DNA from: an archaeon
GTDB taxonomy: Archaea > Thermoproteota > Nitrososphaeria > Nitrososphaerales > CADDZS01
Direction: 5' to 3'
DNA: 64,000 nucleotides
NCBI GenBank assembly: GCA_029850555.1
Contig: JARCRS010000031.1
Span: 62,001 to 126,000 of the forward strand
Shown here: positions 31,277-47,829 of the stretch, piece by piece
Layout of the letters: each line of letters begins with the position of its first letter
How positions within the stretch are numbered: position 1 is the first letter of the stretch
Position numbers and translations under genes: made by a program
The notes under the pieces: model-generated
Told to the model about the DNA's origin: nothing
The model's database searches: none
The model's input: only the letters and a program-made list of their open reading frames with translations

Positions 31277-31481
31277 AAGTATCAAATCTGGCTGATTTGC
31301 TCTCTAACGATCCGTGATCGATTATCCAATAATATTTGCTCGGCAAACTGATGCTTCCCCAGAGATCTTGTCTTACGAAGCTGAATCTTAGAGCTTTAGC
31401 CTGTGACAGTTTAGCTAAATCAACTGAAATCCAGAGAAAACATCGCATGTGCCCTAAATCTGTCCATTCCCGGACTCATAC

Positions 31482-31740
31482 GGCTATTGTTTGACCGTGC
31501 CGTTCTAAACACTTGAACTACGTTTATATTGTAAAACAAATTTGGCTCACTACGTACATAATTTCGAATATAGCCATTGCTTGTACTATGCCTGAATTTA
31601 GTCCTGATTCCTTATTACAGAAAAAAACGGCGCATGACATACTATTTGTGAATATAGCCATTGTTTGTGCTAGGTCTTAATTCGCTCTTCTTTCATGGTC
31701 GTAAAAAAAATCTATCGCTCTCATACTTCCAGAGAAACAA
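31482..31740 (+). repeat. Three degenerate tandem units of about 85 bp
   Basis: Unit starts are at about 31482, 31571 and 31655, each beginning with a version of TAGCCATTGYTTGTACT. Shared internal blocks are CTTTCATGGTC, ACAGAAAAAAACGG, TGACATACTAT and ATAATTTCGAATA; not every unit has all of them. Spacing is 89 and 84 bases. The same blocks, in the same order, occur on the opposite strand at 43435-43604. They lie in a 577-base gap between convergent genes (31277-31853). No coding frame covers them. Nature unknown: possible tandem small-RNA genes, protein-binding arrays or remnants of a mobile element. Confidence 0.75.
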
Positions 31741-31853
31741 AGAACCCCCAATCCCGTCAGACGTGCATTGATGCCTAACAGACAAAATTGAAGTCAAGAA
31801 TCCATTCCGACCAATCAAAACAAAAAAACTATAGGTTGAAATTTCCTACTGGT

Positions 31854-33010: not shown

Positions 33011-34075
33011 TTGGCGGATCCAATTCGAATCGGCATCGTGGGAGCCTCAGGGTATGTCGGGGGAGAAATACTTCGAATCCTTGTAAACCATCCAAAAGTT
33101 AGTCTAGCTATTGCGACCTCAAAACAGTACAAAGATGAAGTCGTCTATCGAGTTCATCCGAATCTCAGATCCTTTACGGATTTGAAATTCAGTGAACCGA
33201 AGGTTGATGACCTAACCAGCAATTGCGATTTCGTTTTCACGGCTGTTCCTCATGGTCAAGCCATAAGGATAGTTCCTTCGCTTCTTGGAACTGGTTTGAA
33301 GATCATCGATATGAGCGCGGATTATCGACTCAAGGATCCAGTTGCTTACGAACATTGGTACAAATTCACCCATCCGCAAGCAGACTTGCTTCAAAGCACG
33401 GTTTTTGGTATTCCCGAAATCTATCGGGAAGAAATCAAAAGCGCAGGATTTGTTGCGAATCCCGGTTGCATGGCGATTACTAGCATACTTGCACTTGCCC
33501 CTTTCGCAAAGGCTAGAATCATAGATTTCGAGCACATTGTGGTGGACGCAAAAATAGGAAGCTCAGGAGGCGGCACAAAGCCAACGATTGGAACGCATCA
33601 CGCTGAAAGATATGGTGTCATGAGACCATACAAGCCAGTTGATCATAGGCACACGGCAGAGATCGAACAAGAGCTTTCAAAACTGGCAGGCGAAGATGTA
33701 AAAATTTCGATGACTCCACATGCGATGAATATGGTTAGAGGAATCCTATGCACTATACATTGTTTTTCGGAGGAGAGGCTAACAGTTCCACAGGTATGGA
33801 GACTCCTTAGAGACTTTTACCCGAACTCGGCTTTCATTCGCTACGTGAAGGACAAGAAGGGGATGGGTAGATACCCCGATCCAAAGATCTTGAGTGGTTC
33901 AAATTTTTGTGATATCGGATTTGAAATCGATGAGCGAATGAACAGGTTACTTCTCCTATCTGCTACAGACAACCTGATGAAGGGTGCGGCCGGAAACGGT
34001 GTGCAATGTATGAATCTGATGCTAGGTCTTGAAGAGAGAGAAGGGCTCGAATTTCCCGGGTTGCATCCAATATGA
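33011..34075 (+). CDS. lysY: LysW-gamma-L-alpha-aminoadipyl-6-phosphate reductase
   Basis: Reduces the LysW-bound acyl phosphate to the semialdehyde using NADPH, the step equivalent to ArgC. The 354-residue protein has the nucleotide-binding GIVGASGYVGGEILR at residues 8-22 and the catalytic cysteine in ANPGCMAIT near 147-155. AKIGSSGGGTKP near 180-191 is the family motif that follows. TTG start. The stop overlaps the LysZ start (ATGA). In archaea the enzyme may also serve arginine synthesis on a glutamate-LysW substrate. Confidence 0.93.
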   Translation: MADPIRIGIVGASGYVGGEILRILVNHPKVSLAIATSKQYKDEVVYRVHPNLRSFTDLKFSEPKVDDLTSNCDFVFTAVPHGQAIRIVPSLLGTGLKIIDMSADYRLKDPVAYEHWYKFTHPQADLLQSTVFGIPEIYREEIKSAGFVANPGCMAITSILALAPFAKARIIDFEHIVVDAKIGSSGGGTKPTIGTHHAERYGVMRPYKPVDHRHTAEIEQELSKLAGEDVKISMTPHAMNMVRGILCTIHCFSEERLTVPQVWRLLRDFYPNSAFIRYVKDKKGMGRYPDPKILSGSNFCDIGFEIDERMNRLLLLSATDNLMKGAAGNGVQCMNLMLGLEEREGLEFPGLHPI

Positions 34076-34893
34076 GCAACTCAATCGAAACTCTAGTATG
34101 CAAAATTGGGGGTAGTATAATCAACGGAGTGAATCCGTCAATCATAGACGATATCAAGAAACTCAGAGCACAAGGGACAAAACTAATACTTGTTCATGGG
34201 GGAGGCGACCAGGTAACAGAGATTGCAGAAAAGCTCGGAAAAAAGCAAAGATTTGTAACCTCCCCAGAAGGGATCAAAAGCAGATACACTGACAAGGAAA
34301 CGGCTGAGATTTTTACCATGGTAATGAGCGGCCTTTTGTCTAAAAGGATAGTGCAGACACTTCTCGCGAATGGAATCAATGCTCTCTCTCTCAGCGGACT
34401 GGATGGAGGTCTTTTAACTGCAGAGCGAAAACAAAGGTTGGTCGTTGTCGACGATAGAGGTAGAAAAATTGCAATCGAAGGTGGTTATACGGGCAAGATC
34501 ACGAATGTTAATGTTGGTCTATTGTCTACATTATTCAGTTTGTCAATCGTTCCAGTTGTTTCGCCGGTCGCTGTTGAAAATCGAAACTGGAATCTTTTGA
34601 ATGTCGATGGCGATCGAGCCTGCTCGCATATCTCTGGGGCGATGAAGGCCGACGTTTCCCTTTTCCTCACAGACACTGAGGGCTTGATATTGAATAACCA
34701 GCTTGTTAGGGCTATGATGACAACCGAAGCAAAAGCATCCTTGCATCTCATAGGATCAGGAATGGATAAGAAAGTGATAGCTGCAATTGAAGCGGTGGAG
34801 ATGGGAACAAAGAGATCCATCATAGCATCAGGACTGAAGGAGAATCCAATCCAGAATGCACTGGCTGGAGTTGGAACAGTCATATCAGCCTAA
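34072..34893 (+). CDS. lysZ: LysW-aminoadipate/glutamate kinase
   Basis: Amino-acid kinase that phosphorylates the side-chain carboxylate of LysW-linked alpha-aminoadipate, homologous to ArgB. The 273-residue protein opens with VCKIGGSII near residues 8-16, followed by the LVHGGGDQVTEIAEKLGK motif near 43-60. The nucleotide-binding LNVDGDRACSHISGAMKAD segment lies near 176-195 and LTDTEGLI follows. The ATG start overlaps the LysY stop by four bases, so it is translationally coupled. Confidence 0.93.
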   Translation: MSNSIETLVCKIGGSIINGVNPSIIDDIKKLRAQGTKLILVHGGGDQVTEIAEKLGKKQRFVTSPEGIKSRYTDKETAEIFTMVMSGLLSKRIVQTLLANGINALSLSGLDGGLLTAERKQRLVVVDDRGRKIAIEGGYTGKITNVNVGLLSTLFSLSIVPVVSPVAVENRNWNLLNVDGDRACSHISGAMKADVSLFLTDTEGLILNNQLVRAMMTTEAKASLHLIGSGMDKKVIAAIEAVEMGTKRSIIASGLKENPIQNALAGVGTVISA

Positions 34894-34930
34894 AACACAT
34901 GCGCCCGGCCATAGAAGAGTGCGAAAAAAA

Positions 34931-36151
34931 TTGAGCGAGATAGAAGATCAACACATTATCCCAACGTATCAAAAATTCCCGATTAAGGTAGTGAAGGGCT
35001 CGGGAGCTCTTTTGTGGGATGACCAAGACCGCGAGTACATAGATCTTTCCGGTGGATACGGGGTTGCGATAATCGGACACGCGAATCCGTTTGTCGCAAG
35101 AGCCCTCTCAGATCAGTCAAGAAAACTAGTGACGTGTCATGGGTCCCTTTACAACGATGCTCGGGAAGCCTATCTCTCTGAGCTTGTGAAAGTTCTTCCC
35201 AAAGGACTAGATCACGTGTACTTCTGCAACAGCGGCGCGGAAGCAAACGAGGCGGCAATTAAATTTGCTAGAAAGAAGACCGGAAGGAAGGAGATAGTTG
35301 CGTTTACAGGAAGCTATCATGGCAAGACCTATGGCGCCCTTTCGGCGACTTGGAACCAGAAATACAGAAAACCATTCGAACCTCTATTGGAAGGAGTCAG
35401 ATTTTCTCCGTTCGGAAATTTAGAGAAGGCAGACCAATCCATATCCAGCGAAACTGCCGCGATTATAGTAGAGCCGATACAAGGAGAAAGTGGAATCCAC
35501 CTTCCTCCCGAAAACTTTCTTCCACACCTGAGAGATTTGGCAGATTCGACTGGCTCTGTCCTCATATTTGACGAAGTACAGTCGGGGTTTGGGAGGACCG
35601 GGAGTATGTGGGCATGTGAGAATTGGAATGTCGCACCAGATATTTTGACTGCTTCAAAAGGAATAGCAGGAGGCGTGCCATTTGGCTTTACGGCTGTAAG
35701 GGCAGACATTTCCTCGTCTTTGAAACCTGGGGAGCAAACGAGTACATTCGGCGGTAATGCGCTATCCTGCGCTGCCGCACTAGCTGCTTTAAGTTTCCTT
35801 CAGGATGAACACTTACTAGAAAAGGCACGCGAAAACGGATCATACTTTATTCAAAAGCTAGAGTCGATTGTCCATGCAAGGCATCATGGCCTCGTCCGTG
35901 AAGTTCGAGGAAAAGGGCTAATGATTGCTGTTGAGCTCAAGATACCGGTGAAGGACGTGATCAATCTAGGTTTCAAGCACAACCTCATATTACTTTATGC
36001 GGGACTGAACATTCTGAGATTTCTTCCTCCTCTAGTCATTACAAGAGATCAAGTTGACAAAGTAGTTAGTTCACTAGACTCGATTCTTACATCTATCGAA
36101 TCCCAAGCGAATGGCGCCAATTTGGAAAATAGATTGCAGGCAGAGGCCTAA
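34931..36151 (+). CDS. lysJ: LysW-gamma-L-lysine aminotransferase
   Basis: PLP-dependent class III aminotransferase converting LysW-aminoadipate semialdehyde to LysW-lysine, related to ArgD. Markers: EYIDLSGGYGVAIIGHANP near the N-terminus, GSYHGKTYGALSAT, IVEPIQGESG, the LIFDEVQSGFGRTG motif, and the PLP lysine in TASKGIAGG. I place the start at TTG 34931, which gives the usual N-terminus (SEIEDQHIIPTYQKF); the open frame extends back to an ATG at 34856 overlapping lysZ, but those residues are not family-like. Followed 5 bases later by the regulator gene. Confidence 0.92.
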   Translation: MSEIEDQHIIPTYQKFPIKVVKGSGALLWDDQDREYIDLSGGYGVAIIGHANPFVARALSDQSRKLVTCHGSLYNDAREAYLSELVKVLPKGLDHVYFCNSGAEANEAAIKFARKKTGRKEIVAFTGSYHGKTYGALSATWNQKYRKPFEPLLEGVRFSPFGNLEKADQSISSETAAIIVEPIQGESGIHLPPENFLPHLRDLADSTGSVLIFDEVQSGFGRTGSMWACENWNVAPDILTASKGIAGGVPFGFTAVRADISSSLKPGEQTSTFGGNALSCAAALAALSFLQDEHLLEKARENGSYFIQKLESIVHARHHGLVREVRGKGLMIAVELKIPVKDVINLGFKHNLILLYAGLNILRFLPPLVITRDQVDKVVSSLDSILTSIESQANGANLENRLQAEA

Positions 36152-36156
36152 AATAA

Positions 36157-36573
36157 TTGCCCGATCAAACAGACGACAAAATATTATCTATTTTGAGGGA
36201 AGATGCGCGAAAGCCATTCGTCGATATCGCGAAATCAGTCAATCTCTCTGAAGCAGCTATTCGTAGAAGAGTTTCAAATCTGATTAAGAATGGCTCAATT
36301 TCACGATTCACGATTGAGACAAATATTGGCCCTCAAGCAAGGGCAATTAGCCTTATCTCTGTGAATCCGAACTCACCGACAACCGAGGTTTCCTCACGAC
36401 TGAAGAGAGTTAAGGGGGTTGACTCTATATTTGAAATCACGGGCGAATACGATATCGCAGTGATTGTTTCTGGCTCGAATATAGCAGAAATAAACTCCAC
36501 AATCGACGAAATACGCAAACTAACAGGCATAGATGATACGAATACCGTAGTTGTTTTGAAGACTGTTCTCTGA
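36157..36573 (+). CDS. lysM: Lrp/AsnC-family regulator, LysM-like
   Basis: 138 residues: N-terminal winged HTH (DDKILSILREDARKPFVDIA, then LSEAAIRRRVSNLIKNGSI) and C-terminal ligand-binding RAM domain (IFEITGEYDIAVIVSG near 90-105). TTG start 5 bases after lysJ. Sulfolobus LysM is an Lrp-family activator of lysine genes that responds to lysine; location inside this cluster supports the same role by inference, though the symbol rests on context rather than on a unique motif. Confidence 0.85.
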   Translation: MPDQTDDKILSILREDARKPFVDIAKSVNLSEAAIRRRVSNLIKNGSISRFTIETNIGPQARAISLISVNPNSPTTEVSSRLKRVKGVDSIFEITGEYDIAVIVSGSNIAEINSTIDEIRKLTGIDDTNTVVVLKTVL

Positions 36574-36702
36574 TTTCGCAGCAAATAGTGTTATATTCGT
36601 TCCTTTCCTGCGTTAATCGTAAGTAAGGGCAAGTATTTGCAGTCCTCGAGTTCTTCTACTGGCAATTATGATTCTCGAAGTGAGAATAATAGTACTCAAT
36701 TA

Positions 36703-37860
36703 ATGAGTCGCTTAAAGATCCTAGATTCGACCCTCCGTGAAGGGGAACAGAGTGTGGGAGTCTCCTTCACGAGACGACAGAGAATACAGATAGCTTGGAT
36801 GCTTGATTACTTTGGAGTTGATAGCATCGAAATCAGTCCTGCTGTCTCGCAATCGCACCGAGAATCCTTGCAGGAGATGATGAAAGCTGGTTTATCAACT
36901 CAAATCGTCTCTCACGGAAGAGCTCTTCCTGAAGACGTGGACGTATCAAGAGCCTGCGACGTCGAGTGGGTCGCAATGTATCACTCAGTTTCAGATATCC
37001 ATCTCAGCTCAAAACTTCACATTAGCAGAGAGGCTGCGCTTGAAAGATCTATTAGGGCAGTTGAATACGCGAAAAGTCATGGTTTGAAACTAAGATTCAC
37101 CGTTGAGGATGCAAGCAGAGCAGATCCAGAGTATTTGTCACATTTTATATCGGAGATTTCGAAAGCTGGAGCTGATCGTATTGGTATACCGGATACAGTC
37201 GGAATTATGTTACCTCAGGGAATGGCTAAATTGGTCGAGCTCGCACGGAAAGCTACCAATCGACCAATCGATGTTCACTGCCACAACGATCTTGGGCTAG
37301 CCCTAGCCAATTCCCTTGCTGCAGCCGAAGCCGGAGCTGATCAAATTCATGTCACAATAGACGGCTTGGGCGAAAGAGTTGGAATCACCTCGCTTGCGGA
37401 ACTCACCATGGCCCTCAAATTGCTCTACAATTCTAATCGATCATTCCGATACGAGATGCTGAGTGAACTTTCAAAGCTTGTCTCTTCTTATACAAACAAT
37501 CCAGTACCGGCTACAAGGCCAATTGTCGGAAAAAATGCTCACACTCACAAGGCGGGAACACATCTTGCTGCAATGATTAGGAATCCCGAAGCGTACGAAA
37601 TTATTCCTCCAAGGCTTGTCGGAAACACAAGGAGACTAGTATTCGGAGAACTCTCGGGAAAGAATGGCGCAGCATATCTTTTGCGTATTCTTGGAGTCGA
37701 GCCCACGATGGAAATGAGCAAAGCGATCGCAATCGGGCTAAAGAATTTGCAATGCGGAGATCTCTTCGAGCTTGCAGTAGATGATCGCCTCGAGGTTAAA
37801 GCTCTGGAATCAGAGTCAAAGATCAAACAAGCTGAAGTTTTTGCCTCATCGTCTAATTGA
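36703..37860 (+). CDS. lysS: Homocitrate synthase
   Basis: Condenses 2-oxoglutarate with acetyl-CoA, first step of the alpha-aminoadipate pathway. LeuA-like TIM barrel with ILDSTLREGEQSVGVSFT at the N-terminus, the divalent-metal motif VHCHNDLGLALAN, and GERVGITSLAELTM. The frame is open from a TTG at 36637, but the extra 22 residues are Ser/Asn-rich and not family-like, so I prefer the ATG at 36703 that gives MSRLKILDSTLREG. A TATA-like GTTATATT near 36590 would suit either start. Feedback inhibition by lysine is typical of the family. Confidence 0.92.
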   Translation: MSRLKILDSTLREGEQSVGVSFTRRQRIQIAWMLDYFGVDSIEISPAVSQSHRESLQEMMKAGLSTQIVSHGRALPEDVDVSRACDVEWVAMYHSVSDIHLSSKLHISREAALERSIRAVEYAKSHGLKLRFTVEDASRADPEYLSHFISEISKAGADRIGIPDTVGIMLPQGMAKLVELARKATNRPIDVHCHNDLGLALANSLAAAEAGADQIHVTIDGLGERVGITSLAELTMALKLLYNSNRSFRYEMLSELSKLVSSYTNNPVPATRPIVGKNAHTHKAGTHLAAMIRNPEAYEIIPPRLVGNTRRLVFGELSGKNGAAYLLRILGVEPTMEMSKAIAIGLKNLQCGDLFELAVDDRLEVKALESESKIKQAEVFASSSN

Positions 37861-37893
37861 AAGAAATCAAGTTAGGAGGTGAAATCAAATCAA

Positions 37894-38064
37894 ATGGCTA
37901 GTTGTCTCGAATGTAACCAGAACATCAGAGTTCCACAGGACGCCATCGATGGTGAAATTGTGACATGCGGGGATTGTGGAACCTGTTTTGAGCTTGAAAT
38001 ATCTGAATCGGGTGTATTGACATTGAAAACTGCAGAATCAGTGGGAGAGGATTGGGGAGAGTGA
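37894..38064 (+). CDS. lysW: Amino-group carrier protein LysW
   Basis: A 56-residue acidic protein to which alpha-aminoadipate (and possibly glutamate) is attached through its terminal Glu. Zinc ribbon cysteines: SCLECNQNI at residues 3-11 and VTCGDCGTCFELE at 23-35. The C-terminus is exactly EDWGE, the invariant carrier tail. An AGGAGGT ribosome-binding site at 37874-37880 precedes the ATG at 37894 by 13 bases; a GTG at 37879 is in frame but overlaps the site and is less likely. Directly before the ligase lysX. Confidence 0.96.
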   Translation: MASCLECNQNIRVPQDAIDGEIVTCGDCGTCFELEISESGVLTLKTAESVGEDWGE

Positions 38065-38074
38065 TTGCTCGGCA

Positions 38075-38947
38075 TTGACTGCTAGAATCTCGATGGTATA
38101 CGATCTAGTTCGGCTCGAAGAAAAGGCCATAATCGAGGCTGCGAAGAAAAGGTCGGGCGAACTAGAGTTCAAGGCATTTGATTCAAAGGATCTTCGCTTT
38201 GATCTTTTGAAAGGTGGAAACCAAGCAAAGGAAAAATTCGGGCAGATAGTCCTTCAGCGCTGCGTGGCATACTTCAGAAATGTGCACTTGACCGGCGTAC
38301 TGGAAGGCTTTGGTCTCCAAGTCGTGAACAATCTCTCTACAGCCCTCATGACTGGTAATAAAGCCCTAACAACTATGGCTCTTTCCAAGGCAAATGTGCC
38401 TACACCGCGGACAATGCTCGCGTTTACGAAAGAGCAAGCGCTGGCTGCTCTCGAAGAACTCGGATATCCAGCTATAATAAAACCAACAATCGGAAGCTGG
38501 GGAAGACTAGTCGCATCTGTGAGCGATGTTGATGGGGCAAAGAGCGTCATCGAAGATAGGGAAGAGATGCCGGCAATGTACCATGTCTACTACCTCCAGG
38601 AGAAAGTGAGGAGGCCGCCGAGAGATATTCGAGCGGTGGTCATCGGAGAGAGAACGGTTGCCGCTATTTACAGAATTTCGACGACTGGAGATTGGAGGAC
38701 TAACACAGCTCGGGGAGGAAAGGCCGAAAATTTACCGATTTCAAAAGAGCTAGATGACATTTGCCTTCGTTCGACAAAACCCTTTGGACGAGGGATCTAC
38801 GGGGTCGACCTGATGGAATCCGAGAGGGACGGACTGCTAGTTCATGAAGTGAACAACACAACAGAGTTCAAGAATGTTCTTGCACAGAGTGGAGTTGACA
38901 TTCCTGGGTTAATAATTGACTTTCTGTTAGAACAAGAGAGAAACTAA
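38075..38947 (+). CDS. lysX: LysW-alpha-aminoadipate ligase
   Basis: ATP-grasp ligase joining the alpha-amino group of alpha-aminoadipate to the LysW C-terminal Glu. The 290-residue protein has MVYDLVRLEEKAIIEAAKKR at the N-terminus (LysX/ArgX/RimK-like), PAIIKPTIGSWGRLV for ATP binding near 131-145, and HEVNNTTEFKN near 256-266 for metal binding. TTG start 10 bases after lysW. Only one such ligase is in the window, so whether it also or instead uses glutamate (ArgX role) cannot be decided from sequence by eye; the surrounding genes favour lysine. Confidence 0.92.
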   Translation: MTARISMVYDLVRLEEKAIIEAAKKRSGELEFKAFDSKDLRFDLLKGGNQAKEKFGQIVLQRCVAYFRNVHLTGVLEGFGLQVVNNLSTALMTGNKALTTMALSKANVPTPRTMLAFTKEQALAALEELGYPAIIKPTIGSWGRLVASVSDVDGAKSVIEDREEMPAMYHVYYLQEKVRRPPRDIRAVVIGERTVAAIYRISTTGDWRTNTARGGKAENLPISKELDDICLRSTKPFGRGIYGVDLMESERDGLLVHEVNNTTEFKNVLAQSGVDIPGLIIDFLLEQERN

Positions 38948-38968
38948 ACTGAAAGCGTACAATTTAAT

Positions 38969-40141
38969 ATGATTAAAGGAGTTGAAGTTATGACCTTGAC
39001 AAGACAATTGAGCCAGGTTTCCGCAACAGATCAGAAGAAAGAGGCGCGCATTGCGTTTGCGGTGAAGATTTTGTCGACCTATTCACCATCCGGCGAAGAG
39101 GGTGAGTTAGCGGCACTGCTTCGTTCGGAACTGGAAGCGCGCGGCCTTGATCCAAAAAGTGATGCAGCGGGCAATGTCATTTGCGAAACTGGTTCGGGAC
39201 CACGTACTCTGCTTTTCTGTCCTCATATTGACACAGTGCCCGGAAGGCTTCCAGTCAGAAGAGAAGGCAACGTTTTGTATGGAAGAGGAGCTAGCGACGC
39301 AAAAGGGGCACTACTTTCAATGTTATTTGCTTTTGAAGACATTGCTGAAAGATTGGAAAAAGATCCGATCAAAAAGTCGAAGAGCCGTCTGATCTTTGCA
39401 GCAGTAGTTGAAGAAGAAAGAGAAAGCAAGGGCCTTGACCAATTGATCAAAGACAATGTTAGAGCGGACGCTGCAATTTTCGGCGAACCATGTGGCGTGA
39501 ACAGAGTAACGGTTGGATATAGAGGACACGTTCCTGTTTCTTTTGAAATTGTCACTAAAGAAGCTCACGCGAGCGCGCCTTGGATTACTACCAACGCAGC
39601 TGAAGTAGCATTTTCTCTTTACGAATCACTTCGGACGGGCTTAGCCACGCCGCAATCTGAGAGCATTGACTCGGTGTCGGTTGCAATCACTAAGATAGAA
39701 TCGGGAACATCTCACAACGTCATACCAGGACACGCAAAGATGTCAGTTGACATTCGGGTACCGATTGGAATGAGCGCCGAAAAGGTTGCAAAGAAAGTGT
39801 GCGAGATAGCATCAGAGAGCGAAAAATCGCACCGTTGTAGGATTGTTTCGAACTTGGCGGAATGGACAGAACCCTATAGGGCCAAACTGGATAGCAAGAT
39901 TGTTAGATCTATGAGCAGGGCAATAATCAAATCTGGATTAAAGCCATCATTCATTTCGAAGTCCGGGACGGGTGACATGAATACTTATGCCCTGGCGCTT
40001 GCAGTTGACTCCATAACTTACGGACCGGGTGACACACGACTTTCACACACAGACTCGGAGTTTATTGATATGCAGGATGTTTTTGCTTGCGCAAACGTAC
40101 TCGTTGGGACCCACTCTGAATTCTTCGCTTTTGAAGTCTAA
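38969..40141 (+). CDS. lysK: LysW-lysine/ornithine hydrolase
   Basis: M20-family zinc peptidase releasing lysine from LysW, the last step. Motifs: LLFCPHIDTVPGRLPV with the metal-binding His/Asp near residues 79-90, YGRGASDAKGALLSML near 104-119, and VVEEERESKG near 148-157 with the catalytic Glu. Length 390 is slightly longer than typical (about 350) because of an N-terminal extension. The ATG at 38969 may be preceded by untranslated sequence; ATG at 38990 is an alternative. Confidence 0.92.
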   Translation: MIKGVEVMTLTRQLSQVSATDQKKEARIAFAVKILSTYSPSGEEGELAALLRSELEARGLDPKSDAAGNVICETGSGPRTLLFCPHIDTVPGRLPVRREGNVLYGRGASDAKGALLSMLFAFEDIAERLEKDPIKKSKSRLIFAAVVEEERESKGLDQLIKDNVRADAAIFGEPCGVNRVTVGYRGHVPVSFEIVTKEAHASAPWITTNAAEVAFSLYESLRTGLATPQSESIDSVSVAITKIESGTSHNVIPGHAKMSVDIRVPIGMSAEKVAKKVCEIASESEKSHRCRIVSNLAEWTEPYRAKLDSKIVRSMSRAIIKSGLKPSFISKSGTGDMNTYALALAVDSITYGPGDTRLSHTDSEFIDMQDVFACANVLVGTHSEFFAFEV

Positions 40142-40155
40142 AAAGTGAACAAGAC

Positions 40156-41424
40156 TTGGTAGGAAAGACTCTAGCAGAGAAAATAATTGGAGAACACACT
40201 GCGAATGGAGTCGTATCGTGCGGAGAAGTTGTTATCGTAAAAGTTGACTACACGTTTTCTCACGACGCATCCGGCCCCCTCCTGATTAGTCAGCTCGGAA
40301 AATTCAAACAAGATTCAACACTAGGCTCCTTAGACCAAGATAGAACTATCTTTTTCATTGACCATGCGGTCCCGCCGCCAACCAAGGAACTCTCAAACGA
40401 TCAGGAAATTGTCAGGCAATTTGCGATGAATAACGGCCTCGTTCTTTCTGATGCTGGAAAAGGAATTTGCCATCAAGTCATGGCTGAAGACTATTCAGCT
40501 CCCGGCAATCTAATAGTGGGTACCGACTCGCATACCTGCACTTCCGGCGGCCTTTGCGCTTTCGCAACTGGAATGGGAGCTACTGATATTGCTGTTGCTA
40601 TGCGTTTACGTAAGACTTGGCTTCGCGTTCCTGAGACAATAAAGGTGATCATGAATGGAACACCAACGCGAGGAGTCTTTGCAAAGGATTTGATCTTGAA
40701 GACTCTATCGATACTAGGTACTGACGGAGCCACTTACAAGTCTCTAGAATTCCAAGGACGAGCCGTAGACGAGATGGACGTCTATGGCCGGCTGACGCTT
40801 GCCAACATGGCAGTGGAAGCTGGCGCTAAGACTGGCTTGATTCAATCCGACTCTCGAACTAAGAATTATCTTGACGAGTTTGGTCGCGGAGAACAATGGA
40901 GGGAAATCTTTCCAGATGAAGATGCGATTTACGAATCGGAGATTTCTCTTGATGTAAGTGAGCTAGAACCTCAGGTTGCCCTGCCCGGGTCCCCAGATCA
41001 TGTAAAGCCGATTTCGGAGGCAAAAGGAGCTAAAGTGAACGAAGTTTTCATTGGAAGTTGCACCAACACTAGGATCGAGGACATGAGAATTGTAGCGCAA
41101 ATTTTCAAGGGTCGTAAAAAGGCAAAGGGACTGAAGCTGATAATCACACCTTCGTCTCAAAAAGTGTACTTGAGGTGCATGAATGAAGGAATCCTCGAGA
41201 CTCTTATTGAGGCTGGCGGAGTAGTTACCCCAGCGGGTTGCGGTGTCTGTTTTGGAGCACTCGGAGGAATTCCCGCGGATAACGACGTGATATTTTCTAG
41301 TTCTAACAGAAACTTTCCAGGCAGGACTGGGAATCCAAAAGCACAAACTTATCTCGGTTCGCCCGCAACGGCCGCAGCTACTGCGATTAACGGATTCGTT
41401 TCGGATCCAAGAGAATTTCTCTAA
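40156..41424 (+). CDS. lysT: Homoaconitase large subunit
   Basis: Large subunit of the aconitase-family hydro-lyase converting homocitrate to homoisocitrate. Iron-sulfur cluster cysteines are seen in TDSHTCTSGGLCAFATG near residues 119-135 and in the pair VTPAGCGVCFGALGG near 356-370. FIGSCTNTRIEDMR near 296-309 is the other family hallmark. The 422-residue length is that of IPMI/HACN two-subunit enzymes. TTG start. The companion subunit follows 14 bases later. LeuC and this protein are close relatives; the cluster context supports lysine over leucine. Confidence 0.92.
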   Translation: MVGKTLAEKIIGEHTANGVVSCGEVVIVKVDYTFSHDASGPLLISQLGKFKQDSTLGSLDQDRTIFFIDHAVPPPTKELSNDQEIVRQFAMNNGLVLSDAGKGICHQVMAEDYSAPGNLIVGTDSHTCTSGGLCAFATGMGATDIAVAMRLRKTWLRVPETIKVIMNGTPTRGVFAKDLILKTLSILGTDGATYKSLEFQGRAVDEMDVYGRLTLANMAVEAGAKTGLIQSDSRTKNYLDEFGRGEQWREIFPDEDAIYESEISLDVSELEPQVALPGSPDHVKPISEAKGAKVNEVFIGSCTNTRIEDMRIVAQIFKGRKKAKGLKLIITPSSQKVYLRCMNEGILETLIEAGGVVTPAGCGVCFGALGGIPADNDVIFSSSNRNFPGRTGNPKAQTYLGSPATAAATAINGFVSDPREFL

Positions 41425-41438
41425 AGGTTGATATCCCG

Positions 41439-41933
41439 ATGTCTGGTCGTTCTTGGAAGTTTAAAGATAATATCAGCACAGATGAAATATGTCCTGGTCG
41501 TTATATGAGCCTGCGCTCTAACCTGCCAGAGCTAGCAAAACATACGCTAGAAGACGCGCGAAAAGAGTTTGCTATGGGCGCGCGCTTGGGAGATTTTGTG
41601 GTCGCTGGCAAGAATTTTGGAATGGGATCCAGTCGAGAGCATGCACCATTAATCATCAAGATGTGCGGGATCAGGGCCATTTTGGCTCAATCCTTTGCAA
41701 GAATCTTTTACAGGAATGCAATCAACATAGGTCTGCCGGCGATCATATGTGACACTTCCCAAATTTCGGAGGCTGATGAATTGGACCTAGACATAGGAAA
41801 GGGGCTGGTTCTAGACAGAACGAAGGAAATTCAGATATCATTTCCAAAGATGAGCCCCACGATGGAAGCTATACTGAACGAAGGTGGACTGATTCCATAT
41901 GTCGAGAAATACGGCGATCTTTTGCTGGCATGA
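41439..41933 (+). CDS. lysU: Homoaconitase small subunit
   Basis: Swivel-domain subunit, 164 residues. WKFKDNISTDEICPGRYM at residues 6-23 and NFGMGSSREHAPLIIKMCG near 61-79 are diagnostic; the latter carries substrate-binding Ser/Arg. FARIFYRNAINIGLP near 91-105 follows. The last four bases overlap the start of the dehydrogenase gene. The residues between the first two motifs, which govern substrate length, read RYMSLRSNLPELAKH, and cannot be assigned reliably by eye. Confidence 0.92.
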   Translation: MSGRSWKFKDNISTDEICPGRYMSLRSNLPELAKHTLEDARKEFAMGARLGDFVVAGKNFGMGSSREHAPLIIKMCGIRAILAQSFARIFYRNAINIGLPAIICDTSQISEADELDLDIGKGLVLDRTKEIQISFPKMSPTMEAILNEGGLIPYVEKYGDLLLA

Positions 41934-43018
41934 CAAAATATAAGCTAGCCATGCTTAATGGGGATGGCATAGGACCAGAAGTGGTTTCTAGCGCCAGATC
42001 TATTTTGGAGACGGCTTCGCAAGTTACTGGTTTGGAACTTGAATTTATCGAACTTCCCGTGGGTCTCGAAGCCTACAAGAATTTTGGAAGAACTCTTCCA
42101 CCAAATACAATTGAGGGCATGAGCCAATCCGATGCGTGGATTCTTGGACCGTTACAGACAGGGTCGTATCCAAAAGATGACAGAGATTATCCAATGTCCT
42201 CAGGAAAGATCAGGAAGTACTTTGATCTGTTTGCAAACATAAGGCCTGCGAAATCATACATTCCTAAAGTTGCAAGTAACATCGATCTAGTAATCGTAAG
42301 AGAGAATACTGAGGATTTCTTTCCAAATATAAATCTCTTCAAAGGGTACGGAGAATTTTGGACTGACAAAGATACTGTTGTTTCGCTAAGAGTAATTAGG
42401 CGATCATCCTGCAAAAGAATCGCGAAGACTGCATTTGAACTTGCTCGGTCTAGGAACCAAAAGAAGCTCGTTACGGCTGTCCACAAATCAAATGTGTTGA
42501 TAGAAGGAGATGGCTTGTTTTTGGAAGAGGCTAACCGCGTTTATGAAGAGGGCTTTCGAGATCTCAGATTTGAGCAGAAATTAATTGACAGCGCATCGAT
42601 GGAGCTAGTTTTGAAACCCGAACGATTTGATGTAATATTGGCTACCAATTTGTTCGGCGACATTATCTCGGATGAGGCGGCAGGTCTCGTTGGAGGATTG
42701 GGCTTTTGCCCTTCTCTTAACTCTGGTGAGAAACATGCAATGGGACAGGCAGTTCACGGGACCGCCCCGGATATCGCTGGTAAGGGGATTGCGAATCCCG
42801 TATCAGAAATACTCTCAAGTGTTATGCTTCTAGACTGGCTTTTCTCACACAAGGGGGAGGAAAGGAAGGTCTATGAGACAGCTCGAGTAATTGAGAGAGC
42901 AATCAAAAAGCAACTCTCATCTCAAGACCCTAAGGATAAGACACTTGACATAGATGGGAATGCGTCAACCCAAGAATTCACATCGCGTCTATCTAACCGG
43001 ATTCTAGTTGACAGCTAG
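41930..43018 (+). CDS. hicd: Homoisocitrate dehydrogenase
   Basis: NAD-dependent beta-decarboxylating dehydrogenase of the isopropylmalate/isocitrate family, converting homoisocitrate to 2-oxoadipate. 362 residues: LNGDGIGPEV near the N-terminus, LFANIRPAKS near 99-108, VIVRENTEDFFPN near 121-133, catalytic Lys in VTAVHKSNVL, and LATNLFGDIISDEAAGLVGG near 239-258, with HGTAPDIAGKGIANP after it. ATG overlaps the LysU stop (ATGA). Family members include 3-isopropylmalate dehydrogenase; assignment to homoisocitrate is from the lysine cluster. Confidence 0.9.
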   Translation: MTKYKLAMLNGDGIGPEVVSSARSILETASQVTGLELEFIELPVGLEAYKNFGRTLPPNTIEGMSQSDAWILGPLQTGSYPKDDRDYPMSSGKIRKYFDLFANIRPAKSYIPKVASNIDLVIVRENTEDFFPNINLFKGYGEFWTDKDTVVSLRVIRRSSCKRIAKTAFELARSRNQKKLVTAVHKSNVLIEGDGLFLEEANRVYEEGFRDLRFEQKLIDSASMELVLKPERFDVILATNLFGDIISDEAAGLVGGLGFCPSLNSGEKHAMGQAVHGTAPDIAGKGIANPVSEILSSVMLLDWLFSHKGEERKVYETARVIERAIKKQLSSQDPKDKTLDIDGNASTQEFTSRLSNRILVDS

Positions 43019-43054: not shown

Positions 43055-43213
43055 ATGTCCGGCCTCCGAGAAAAGCAAGTTGCACAAAAGGAAGAGGCCG
43101 TCATGTGCCCGCTCTGCGGGAACGAGATGACCTATATTCAGGTCTGCCATCTTCGCTGCAATTTCTGTGGTTCAGAGCTATCATGCGAAGATAAGGGCTG
43201 GTTCTGGGGATAA
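43055..43213 (+). CDS. 52-residue double-cysteine-pair zinc protein
   Basis: Short ATG frame encoding an N-terminal helix-like polar stretch, then MCPLCGNEM (residues 17-25), HLRCNFCGSELSCEDKGW (32-49) and a final FWG. Two CxxC pairs plus an extra Cys make a compact zinc ribbon. It begins 37 bases after the homoisocitrate dehydrogenase gene and may be part of the same transcript. Similar tiny zinc proteins are frequent in Nitrososphaerota. Function unknown; the cysteine spacing makes it likely to be real. Confidence 0.65.
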   Translation: MSGLREKQVAQKEEAVMCPLCGNEMTYIQVCHLRCNFCGSELSCEDKGWFWG

Positions 43214-43252
43214 AAACGTGGAAAAATGAGGCCGAACAAATGACAGATCGTC

Positions 43253-43438
43253 TTGCTCCGGAGAAATTACCCGTCCAGCGCCTGTGCGGAAGATAGAGCT
43301 AGGGTCCTTCAAATAGTATCTATCAATTCCGATGATATCACTTTAGAAATCGGGTATCCTAACTTCGTTCATACAAGTAATTGCCTAATTGTCAATGAAG
43401 AGCTAGAATCCATCGAACAACTATCGGATAAAAAATAA
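43253..43438 (+). CDS. Short hypothetical protein, start uncertain
   Basis: A 61-codon frame from TTG encodes an acidic, strand-rich sequence (VLQIVSINSDDITLEIGY) resembling a folded small domain. An ATG with a good context at 43240 lies in another frame and runs only 18 codons, so either the start is the TTG or there is a frameshift. No family recognised. Treat as tentative. Confidence 0.3.
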   Translation: MLRRNYPSSACAEDRARVLQIVSINSDDITLEIGYPNFVHTSNCLIVNEELESIEQLSDKK

Positions 43439-43604
43439 ATTGAAACACTGATTGCTTAGCCTATACACCCGTGAGGACGTACTACGATAATTGTTATTTA
43501 AGGAACAAGCAATGGCATTATTCGAAATTATAGTATGTCAGCCACCGTTTTTTTCTGTGACCATGAAAGAGGATTGAATTTAATTACAGTACAAACAATG
43601 GCTA
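43435..43604 (-). repeat. Second, inverted locus of the 85-bp unit family
   Basis: Read on the minus strand, one complete unit begins at 43604 (TAGCCATTGTTTGTACTG) and runs to 43519; a second start (GCCATTGCTTGTTCC) lies at 43518, 86 bases on, and its unit is only weakly conserved. Blocks CTTTCATGGTC, ACAGAAAAAAACGG, TGACATACTAT and ATAATTTCGAATA are identical or nearly so to those at 31482-31740. The region lies in the 460-base gap before the phosphohexomutase gene. The rightward flank (43605-43720) holds a hairpin-like pair ACATACACAGCC/GCTGTATGTGGC and T-rich sequence. Confidence 0.75.
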
Positions 43605-43900
43605 TAAGTTAGGGCGGAGACCCAATTACATACACAGCCAATTCAGTACAGCTGTATGTGGCTGACCAAAGTGGGGGAGTGTAAAAACGAGAAAAAACAT
43701 TGTTTATGGCTTGTCGCTTTGTCTCAATTCTGAGGTCCTTTTTTGATTAATAGAATTAGCAATTCCTTCTGAATCTATCCCAATTCAGCCAGCTCTTTAC
43801 CGAGCAGCTATCGCAGTGATTATAAGAAGGGCTTCGCTTTTGATTCCACCAATAATAAACGACTTTATGCCGCGATTCTTTCTAATCAAGGGACTTTGGG

Positions 43901-47709: not shown

Positions 47710-47829
47710 GCCTCGGTAGCTCAGCCTGGTCAGAGCGATTGCCTCGTATCCAATTTCTCTTCAATTCAAGAAGAGACTTTGAAGGAAAGAGAGAGCAATA
47801 GGTCGCGGGCTCGAATCCCGCCCGAGGCT
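47710..47829 (+). tRNA. tRNA-Thr(CGT) with canonical intron
   Basis: Acceptor GCCTCGG (47710-47716) pairs with CCGAGGC (47822-47828), discriminator T73, as expected for archaeal tRNA-Thr; CCA is not encoded. D arm GCTC/GAGC; anticodon stem ATTGC (47738-47742) with GCAAT (47795-47799). Loop C32 T33 then CGT at 47745-47747 and A37. A 45-nt intron at 47749-47793 follows position 37, the canonical archaeal site. T arm GCGGG/CCCGC. With A37 and a Thr anticodon this tRNA should be a substrate for t6A modification by Sua5/KEOPS. Confidence 0.93.

Follow-up and report, generated by a model that had tools for sequence, protein, structure and literature searches.

Repeat arrays around a lysine-type gene block

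The window, meaning the whole 64,000-bp stretch analysed here (positions 62001-126000 of contig C31 in G000, the window's own genome and a 2.78-Mb draft of 237 contigs), contains a block of lysine-type amino-acid biosynthesis genes with a repeat array in the gap at each of its two ends (Table 1). The first-pass annotation had described the second array as an inverted copy of the unit family seen at the first, and this description holds. Three blocks, ACAGAAAAAAACGG, TGACATACTAT, and CTTTCATGGTC, have exactly 2 copies each in the window, all exact matches and in the same order, with plus-strand copies at 31617, 31635, and 31690, respectively, and minus-strand copies at 43545, 43530, and 43559. 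The motif GCCATTGYTTGT has four window copies (31573 and 31657 on the plus strand, 43505 and 43591 on the minus strand) and no others at ≤1 mismatch. The two plus-strand unit boundaries are 84 bp apart and the two minus-strand boundaries 86 bp apart. The annotation had reported a full unit in array 2 followed by a second unit start 86 bases on; the spacing is correct, but the second unit keeps only its first ~12-20 bp. The similarity also extends further than had been claimed, taking in a degenerate unit in array 1 and a recurrent module beside array 2.

A loss of these matches once an A/T-rich background is modelled was among the outcomes that the annotation had set against its inference. A 38-bp unit consensus matches 3 times in the window at ≤3 mismatches and gave no match in any of 100 dinucleotide-shuffled sequences; background composition does not account for the units.

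Two other features were looked at in the window. A 52-aa ORF at 43055-43213 was considered as LysW, a name that was dropped; Pfam gives no match. A tRNA of 120 bp at 47710-47829, matched by Rfam and missed by ARAGORN, probably contains an intron. This tRNA, together with the gene content, is the basis for treating the host as an archaeon.

Table 1. Coordinates of arrays, units, and neighbouring features in the window
Feature	Position	Strand	Basis or remark
Array 1, degenerate first unit	31483..31572	+	Starts GCTATTGTTTG, ends AATTTCGAATATA; by eye and by similarity to other own-genome loci from 31483
Array 1, unit 1 (84 bp)	31573..31656	+	nhmmer 31574-31645, E 4.4e-18
Array 1, unit 2, 3' end decaying	31657..31732	+	nhmmer 31658-31732, E 1.7e-13
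Array 2, well-preserved unit (86 bp)	43517..43602	-	nhmmer 43529-43601, E 1.1e-18
Array 2, second-unit start (GCCATTGCTTGT), remainder diverged	43496..43516	-	Exact motif; no full-length nhmmer match
Separate recurrent module (GATATCATYGGAATTGATAGATAC...), also beside other arrays	43279..43343	-	88% identity to L161
Long tandem gap with array 2	43214..43900		Orthologous gap shorter in G001 and G003
Convergent gap with array 1	31277..31853		Left neighbour not conserved in G001; no array in G001 counterpart
Lysine-type amino-acid biosynthesis block between arrays	33011..43018	+	Pfam, including LysX_preATP_grasp; collinear in G001 and G003

A lineage-specific dispersed repeat family

The annotation had offered a dispersed noncoding RNA family as one possibility, and the units are indeed dispersed. 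BLAST returned 59 matches in the own genome (E ≤ 10), and an iterated nhmmer profile delineated 44 units in 27 stretches. Some of these stretches belong together as halves of a single locus that the assembly has split between contigs (L160/L161, L165/L167). The insertions are 0.2-1 kb long, intergenic, and made of ~84-bp units with variable ends. Read from boundary to boundary, tandem arrays are bounded by ATA followed by GCCATTGTTTG, and units start with GCCATTGTTTG and end in ...CATACTATCAGTGAATATA; several diverged unit types are present, and they typically repeat every 84 bp. The boundary motif has 40 matches in the own genome vs. 2 for a reversed control. Among boundary spacings below 400 bp, 30 of 40 fall within 70-95 bp (mode 84), whereas shuffled sequence gives 0.

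Three of the stretches, L164, L165, and L167, lie at the ends of contigs C223, C81, and C215 and share one array sequence. Two of these contig ends connect genes lying next to each other in G001 and the third connects to another region, reflecting either an assembly break or a recent copy.

We searched 61 genomes with the unit query and obtained matches in two, the own genome and the same-genus genome G001. The boundary motif had 4 matches in G001, 3 in G006, and 0-2 in the remaining genomes; a 16-mer of the boundary gave only chance matches, in unrelated organisms, in contigs from a wider set of genomes. G001 has its own diverged version of the element, with 35 matches in G001, 22 weak matches in the own genome, and none in G002-G004; the 1.32 Mb of G001 sequence covered has arrays at 26 places. 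The own genome and G001 are each draft bins, with 88% completeness and 4-5% contamination. The arrays are a lineage-specific dispersed repeat family. In viral contigs, the unit core had 2 matches; the two contigs chosen by that core resemble the own unit model weakly and over a short length (36 bp, E 6.8e-4), as expected from their selection, and the other 12 viral contigs had no nhmmer match to either unit model.

Insertions in conserved gene order

The genes of the window map in order onto G001 contig C4, and the lysine block also maps onto contig C76 of G003. The gap holding array 2 measures 688 bp in the window, whereas its counterparts span 247 bp (G001) and 155 bp (G003), so about 440-530 bp have been added here (or removed in G001 and G003). 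Gaps with arrays at L151 and L156 are 1259 and about 970 bp long in the own genome and 290 and 130 bp in G001, and the genes at the contig-end junctions L160/L161 and L165/L167 are neighbours in G001, 312 bp apart and overlapping, respectively. Together with window array 2, these are sites with short gaps that are empty in G001. L155 does not fit; by eye, array-like sequence occupies this gap in the own genome and in G001 alike, and some insertions are therefore not recent. In an earlier, smaller set of G001 array loci, none shared both flanks with an array locus of the own genome. When both neighbours could be mapped in the G001 sequence covered, 4 of 6 array-spanning gene pairs were collinear with G001, compared with 94 of 102 control pairs. 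From these comparisons, most arrays with mapped flanks are insertions in conserved gene order.

Marking of rearrangement breakpoints, which the annotation had proposed to test, is not supported as a general rule, given the four collinear pairs and the two contig-end junctions, but L159 and L171 are array-spanning pairs that are non-collinear with G001 and do lie at breakpoints. Two own-genome segments, L171:1661-4548 and L148:7789-9500, correspond to split parts of genes adjacent in G001 (C65, 126543-128747), each near an array; this split is possibly a rearrangement breakpoint.

Opposite-orientation copies at the two ends of the lysine block had invited the idea that the arrays are paired boundary elements of the block, or that they promote inversion of the intervening 12 kb. 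We consider either role highly improbable. The block has the same order and orientation in G001, which has neither array there, and it is collinear in G003, also without arrays, leaving no sign of an inversion. The annotation had also proposed to test whether the consensus consistently flanks operons; elsewhere, arrays occupy tandem, convergent, and divergent gaps with no rule. The simplest view is that two insertions flank the lysine block by coincidence.

The same comparisons bear on whether the arrays are dispersed promoters, leaders, or small noncoding RNAs, with each ~84-bp unit transcribed or regulatory. Some units contain TTTATA-like stretches by eye, and the units inside any one stretch all share one direction, which would fit this explanation. 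However, a search for a consensus RNA fold of 31 aligned units returned none (alifold 0.0 kcal/mol), so that a structured noncoding RNA is not supported, and Rfam had no match at the arrays, finding nothing apart from a tRNA. The orientation of flanking genes bears no consistent relation to the arrays, and the counterpart gaps of the sister species lack them. A promoter or RNA role is therefore improbable.

A palindrome on one side of the arrays

On reading past the arrays, we noticed a recurring AGTTTTGTTGACAAAACT and, with it, an 18-bp palindrome, AGTTTTGTYRACAAAACT. At ≤1 mismatch, the palindrome has 10 places in the own genome, 11 in G001, and 0 in G002-G004; across the 61 genomes, it is found in these two and in 0 of the 59 others, while a reversed control has 0 matches in both and 1 in G053. 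Nine of the 10 own-genome palindromes lie 3' of an array, 41-352 bp beyond the last profile match. The 41-bp distance belongs to L157, where the last unit is weak, and the other distances are 179-352 bp. Similarly, 9 of the 11 palindromes in G001 lie 3' of an array at 188-373 bp. Two species whose array sequences differ thus show a one-sided link between palindrome and array, and the palindrome itself is exact in both while the surrounding letters differ. About one third of the arrays in each species carry it; the two window arrays gave 0 matches at ≤3 mismatches.

One G001 palindrome, at C16:23990 (L272:13991), has no array within reach and is 239 bp from a contig end. Each genome has one further copy inside a parB gene. 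The viral contigs contain 12 exact matches to the palindrome, and a ParB search in these contigs found no relative.

An orphan ParB-family gene

The palindrome-bearing gene matches Pfam ParB_N (1.1e-9) and HTH_ParB (7.3e-9), and its best solved relatives are Spo0J (9.5e-13) and Noc (1.1e-12). The own protein, which is cut by a contig end and shows the HTH only, is 65% identical to that of the G001 gene (C86:4991-5830), and they are the only close pair; although 30 of the 61 genomes have some ParB match, all others are at ≤39% identity. Scanning 8 proteins of the two parB contigs, we found no ParA domain. Of the 61 genomes, the same two were found to have arrays, palindrome, and parB ortholog, a joint occurrence that counts as one evolutionary event because both genomes belong to one genus.

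Within parB, the palindrome is identical between the species at 17 of 18 bases, and no other 6-codon window in the alignment is as well conserved; 5 of its 6 codons are identical, compared with 57 of 111 outside. The single base change falls at the central position, which is free in the palindrome. As statistics, the conservation of this window is suggestive, not strong.

Noc sites are dispersed over the Bacillus chromosome. The system described here shares with Noc a ParB-fold protein and dispersed palindromic candidate sites, whereas its candidate sites ride on repeats. Bacterial parS offers a second comparison: it is palindromic and present in several copies per genome, one of which lies inside parB, as described for parS-359 of B. 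subtilis (PMC4442127). Unlike the bacterial consensus TGTTNCACGTGAAACA (PMC7022226), the palindrome here is 18 bp long, of another sequence, and in an archaeal host; unlike bacterial ParABS, it is linked to mobile repeats, and no ParA was found beside parB among the 8 proteins scanned. Archaeal segregation machinery with a palindromic centromere-like site is represented by SegAB and by AspA-ParB-ParA of pNOB8 (PMC5120986). An archaeal host and a palindromic centromere-like candidate site are common to these systems and ours; in ours, the ParB resembles Spo0J and Noc and carries an HTH domain of its own. Most likely, the palindrome is the parS-like site at which an orphan ParB-family protein encoded by both genomes would load.

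Mobility of arrays in G001 and a proposed spread of candidate ParB sites

In G001, terminal inverted repeats (TGCTCCGTTTAC... at one end, ...TAAACGGARCA at the other) enclose the arrays at L208, L211, and L212; the L212 pair reads TGCTCCGTTTACTTAAG...CTTAACTAAACGGAACA. The target duplication agrees at 8 of 8 positions in L212 (TTCTAGAG), at 7 of 8 in L208, and in L211 only after a one-base shift. Nested in L212 is an IS6-type element with the terminal inverted repeat GGTTTTGTTGAATCTTC, an 8-bp duplication GGTTTTTC, and a DDE_Tnp_IS240 transposase. None of the three arrays carries the palindrome, so mobility and the candidate ParB site are seen on different members of the family. Own-genome arrays have no convincing terminal repeats: a threshold search gave three pairs, none common to loci, and the terminal-repeat pattern of G001 has 2 places in the own genome, both near a gene that has a copy on each of two contigs and neither at an array. 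With own terminal ends not found, we infer that the own-genome copies spread by transposition because their counterparts are missing in G001.

The arrays resemble MITEs in being short, multi-copy, intergenic, and without transposase; three G001 copies have terminal repeats (~16 bp), one of them with a perfect 8-bp duplication. They differ from MITEs in their mosaic make-up, with ~84-bp units in tandem and ends that vary, in the own copies having no terminal repeats found, and in the linkage of a third of the arrays to a ParB-site-like palindrome. It could be that the arrays are nonetheless an ordinary decaying MITE-like family and that the palindrome is a mere internal module (e.g., fused IS6-type ends) unrelated to ParB. 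The terminal repeats and target duplications in G001 fit this account, and IS6-type transposase genes or fragments occur within ~1.1 kb of an array at 5 of 7 G001 places (C71, C79, C65, C103, and C81), in a sample biased towards arrays. Moreover, the end of the IS6-type element in G001 starts GGTTTTGTTGAA and has GTTTTGT in common with a palindrome half. Yet IS6-type transposase is absent from the array loci of the own genome, which has 10 palindromes all the same. The exactness of the palindrome in both species amid differing surroundings and its presence inside parB in both, with just the free central base altered, also count against this account. We regard it as unlikely.

Our preferred reading, which we consider probable from the comparative sequence evidence, is that of a fast-evolving mobile repeat family in which a subset carries a parS-like candidate loading site of an orphan ParB. 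Under this reading, arrays of ~84-bp units would spread within the lineage as non-autonomous mobile DNA, scattering candidate ParB loading sites over the chromosome in a Noc-like manner, and ParB would accumulate at the palindrome-bearing loci. ParB would bind the palindrome, load as a clamp, and spread, and may have a role in chromosome organisation. The linked ParB-site-like palindrome lends indirect support to the annotation's proposal of domain-organising sites, but this support does not reach the window's two arrays, which are old, array-only members of the family. More tentatively, and with some doubt, an archaeal chromosome might use an orphan Spo0J/Noc-like ParB whose sites are spread by mobile repeats, with each lineage rewriting its ParB layout and the arrays forming a second, co-conserved part of the site.

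The combination of repeat arrays, ParB-like palindrome, and parB did not appear in the titles and abstract openings of the literature searched. Having a candidate site and a candidate protein in two species makes chromosome organisation by an archaeal orphan ParB directly testable, and if binding is true, mobile DNA would here be what spreads centromere-like sites.

The IS6-type element of G001 (L212:4073-6759) also carries small extra ORFs, one of which matches RNA_helicase in Pfam at a marginal level (E 4e-4, narrowly under the cut-off).
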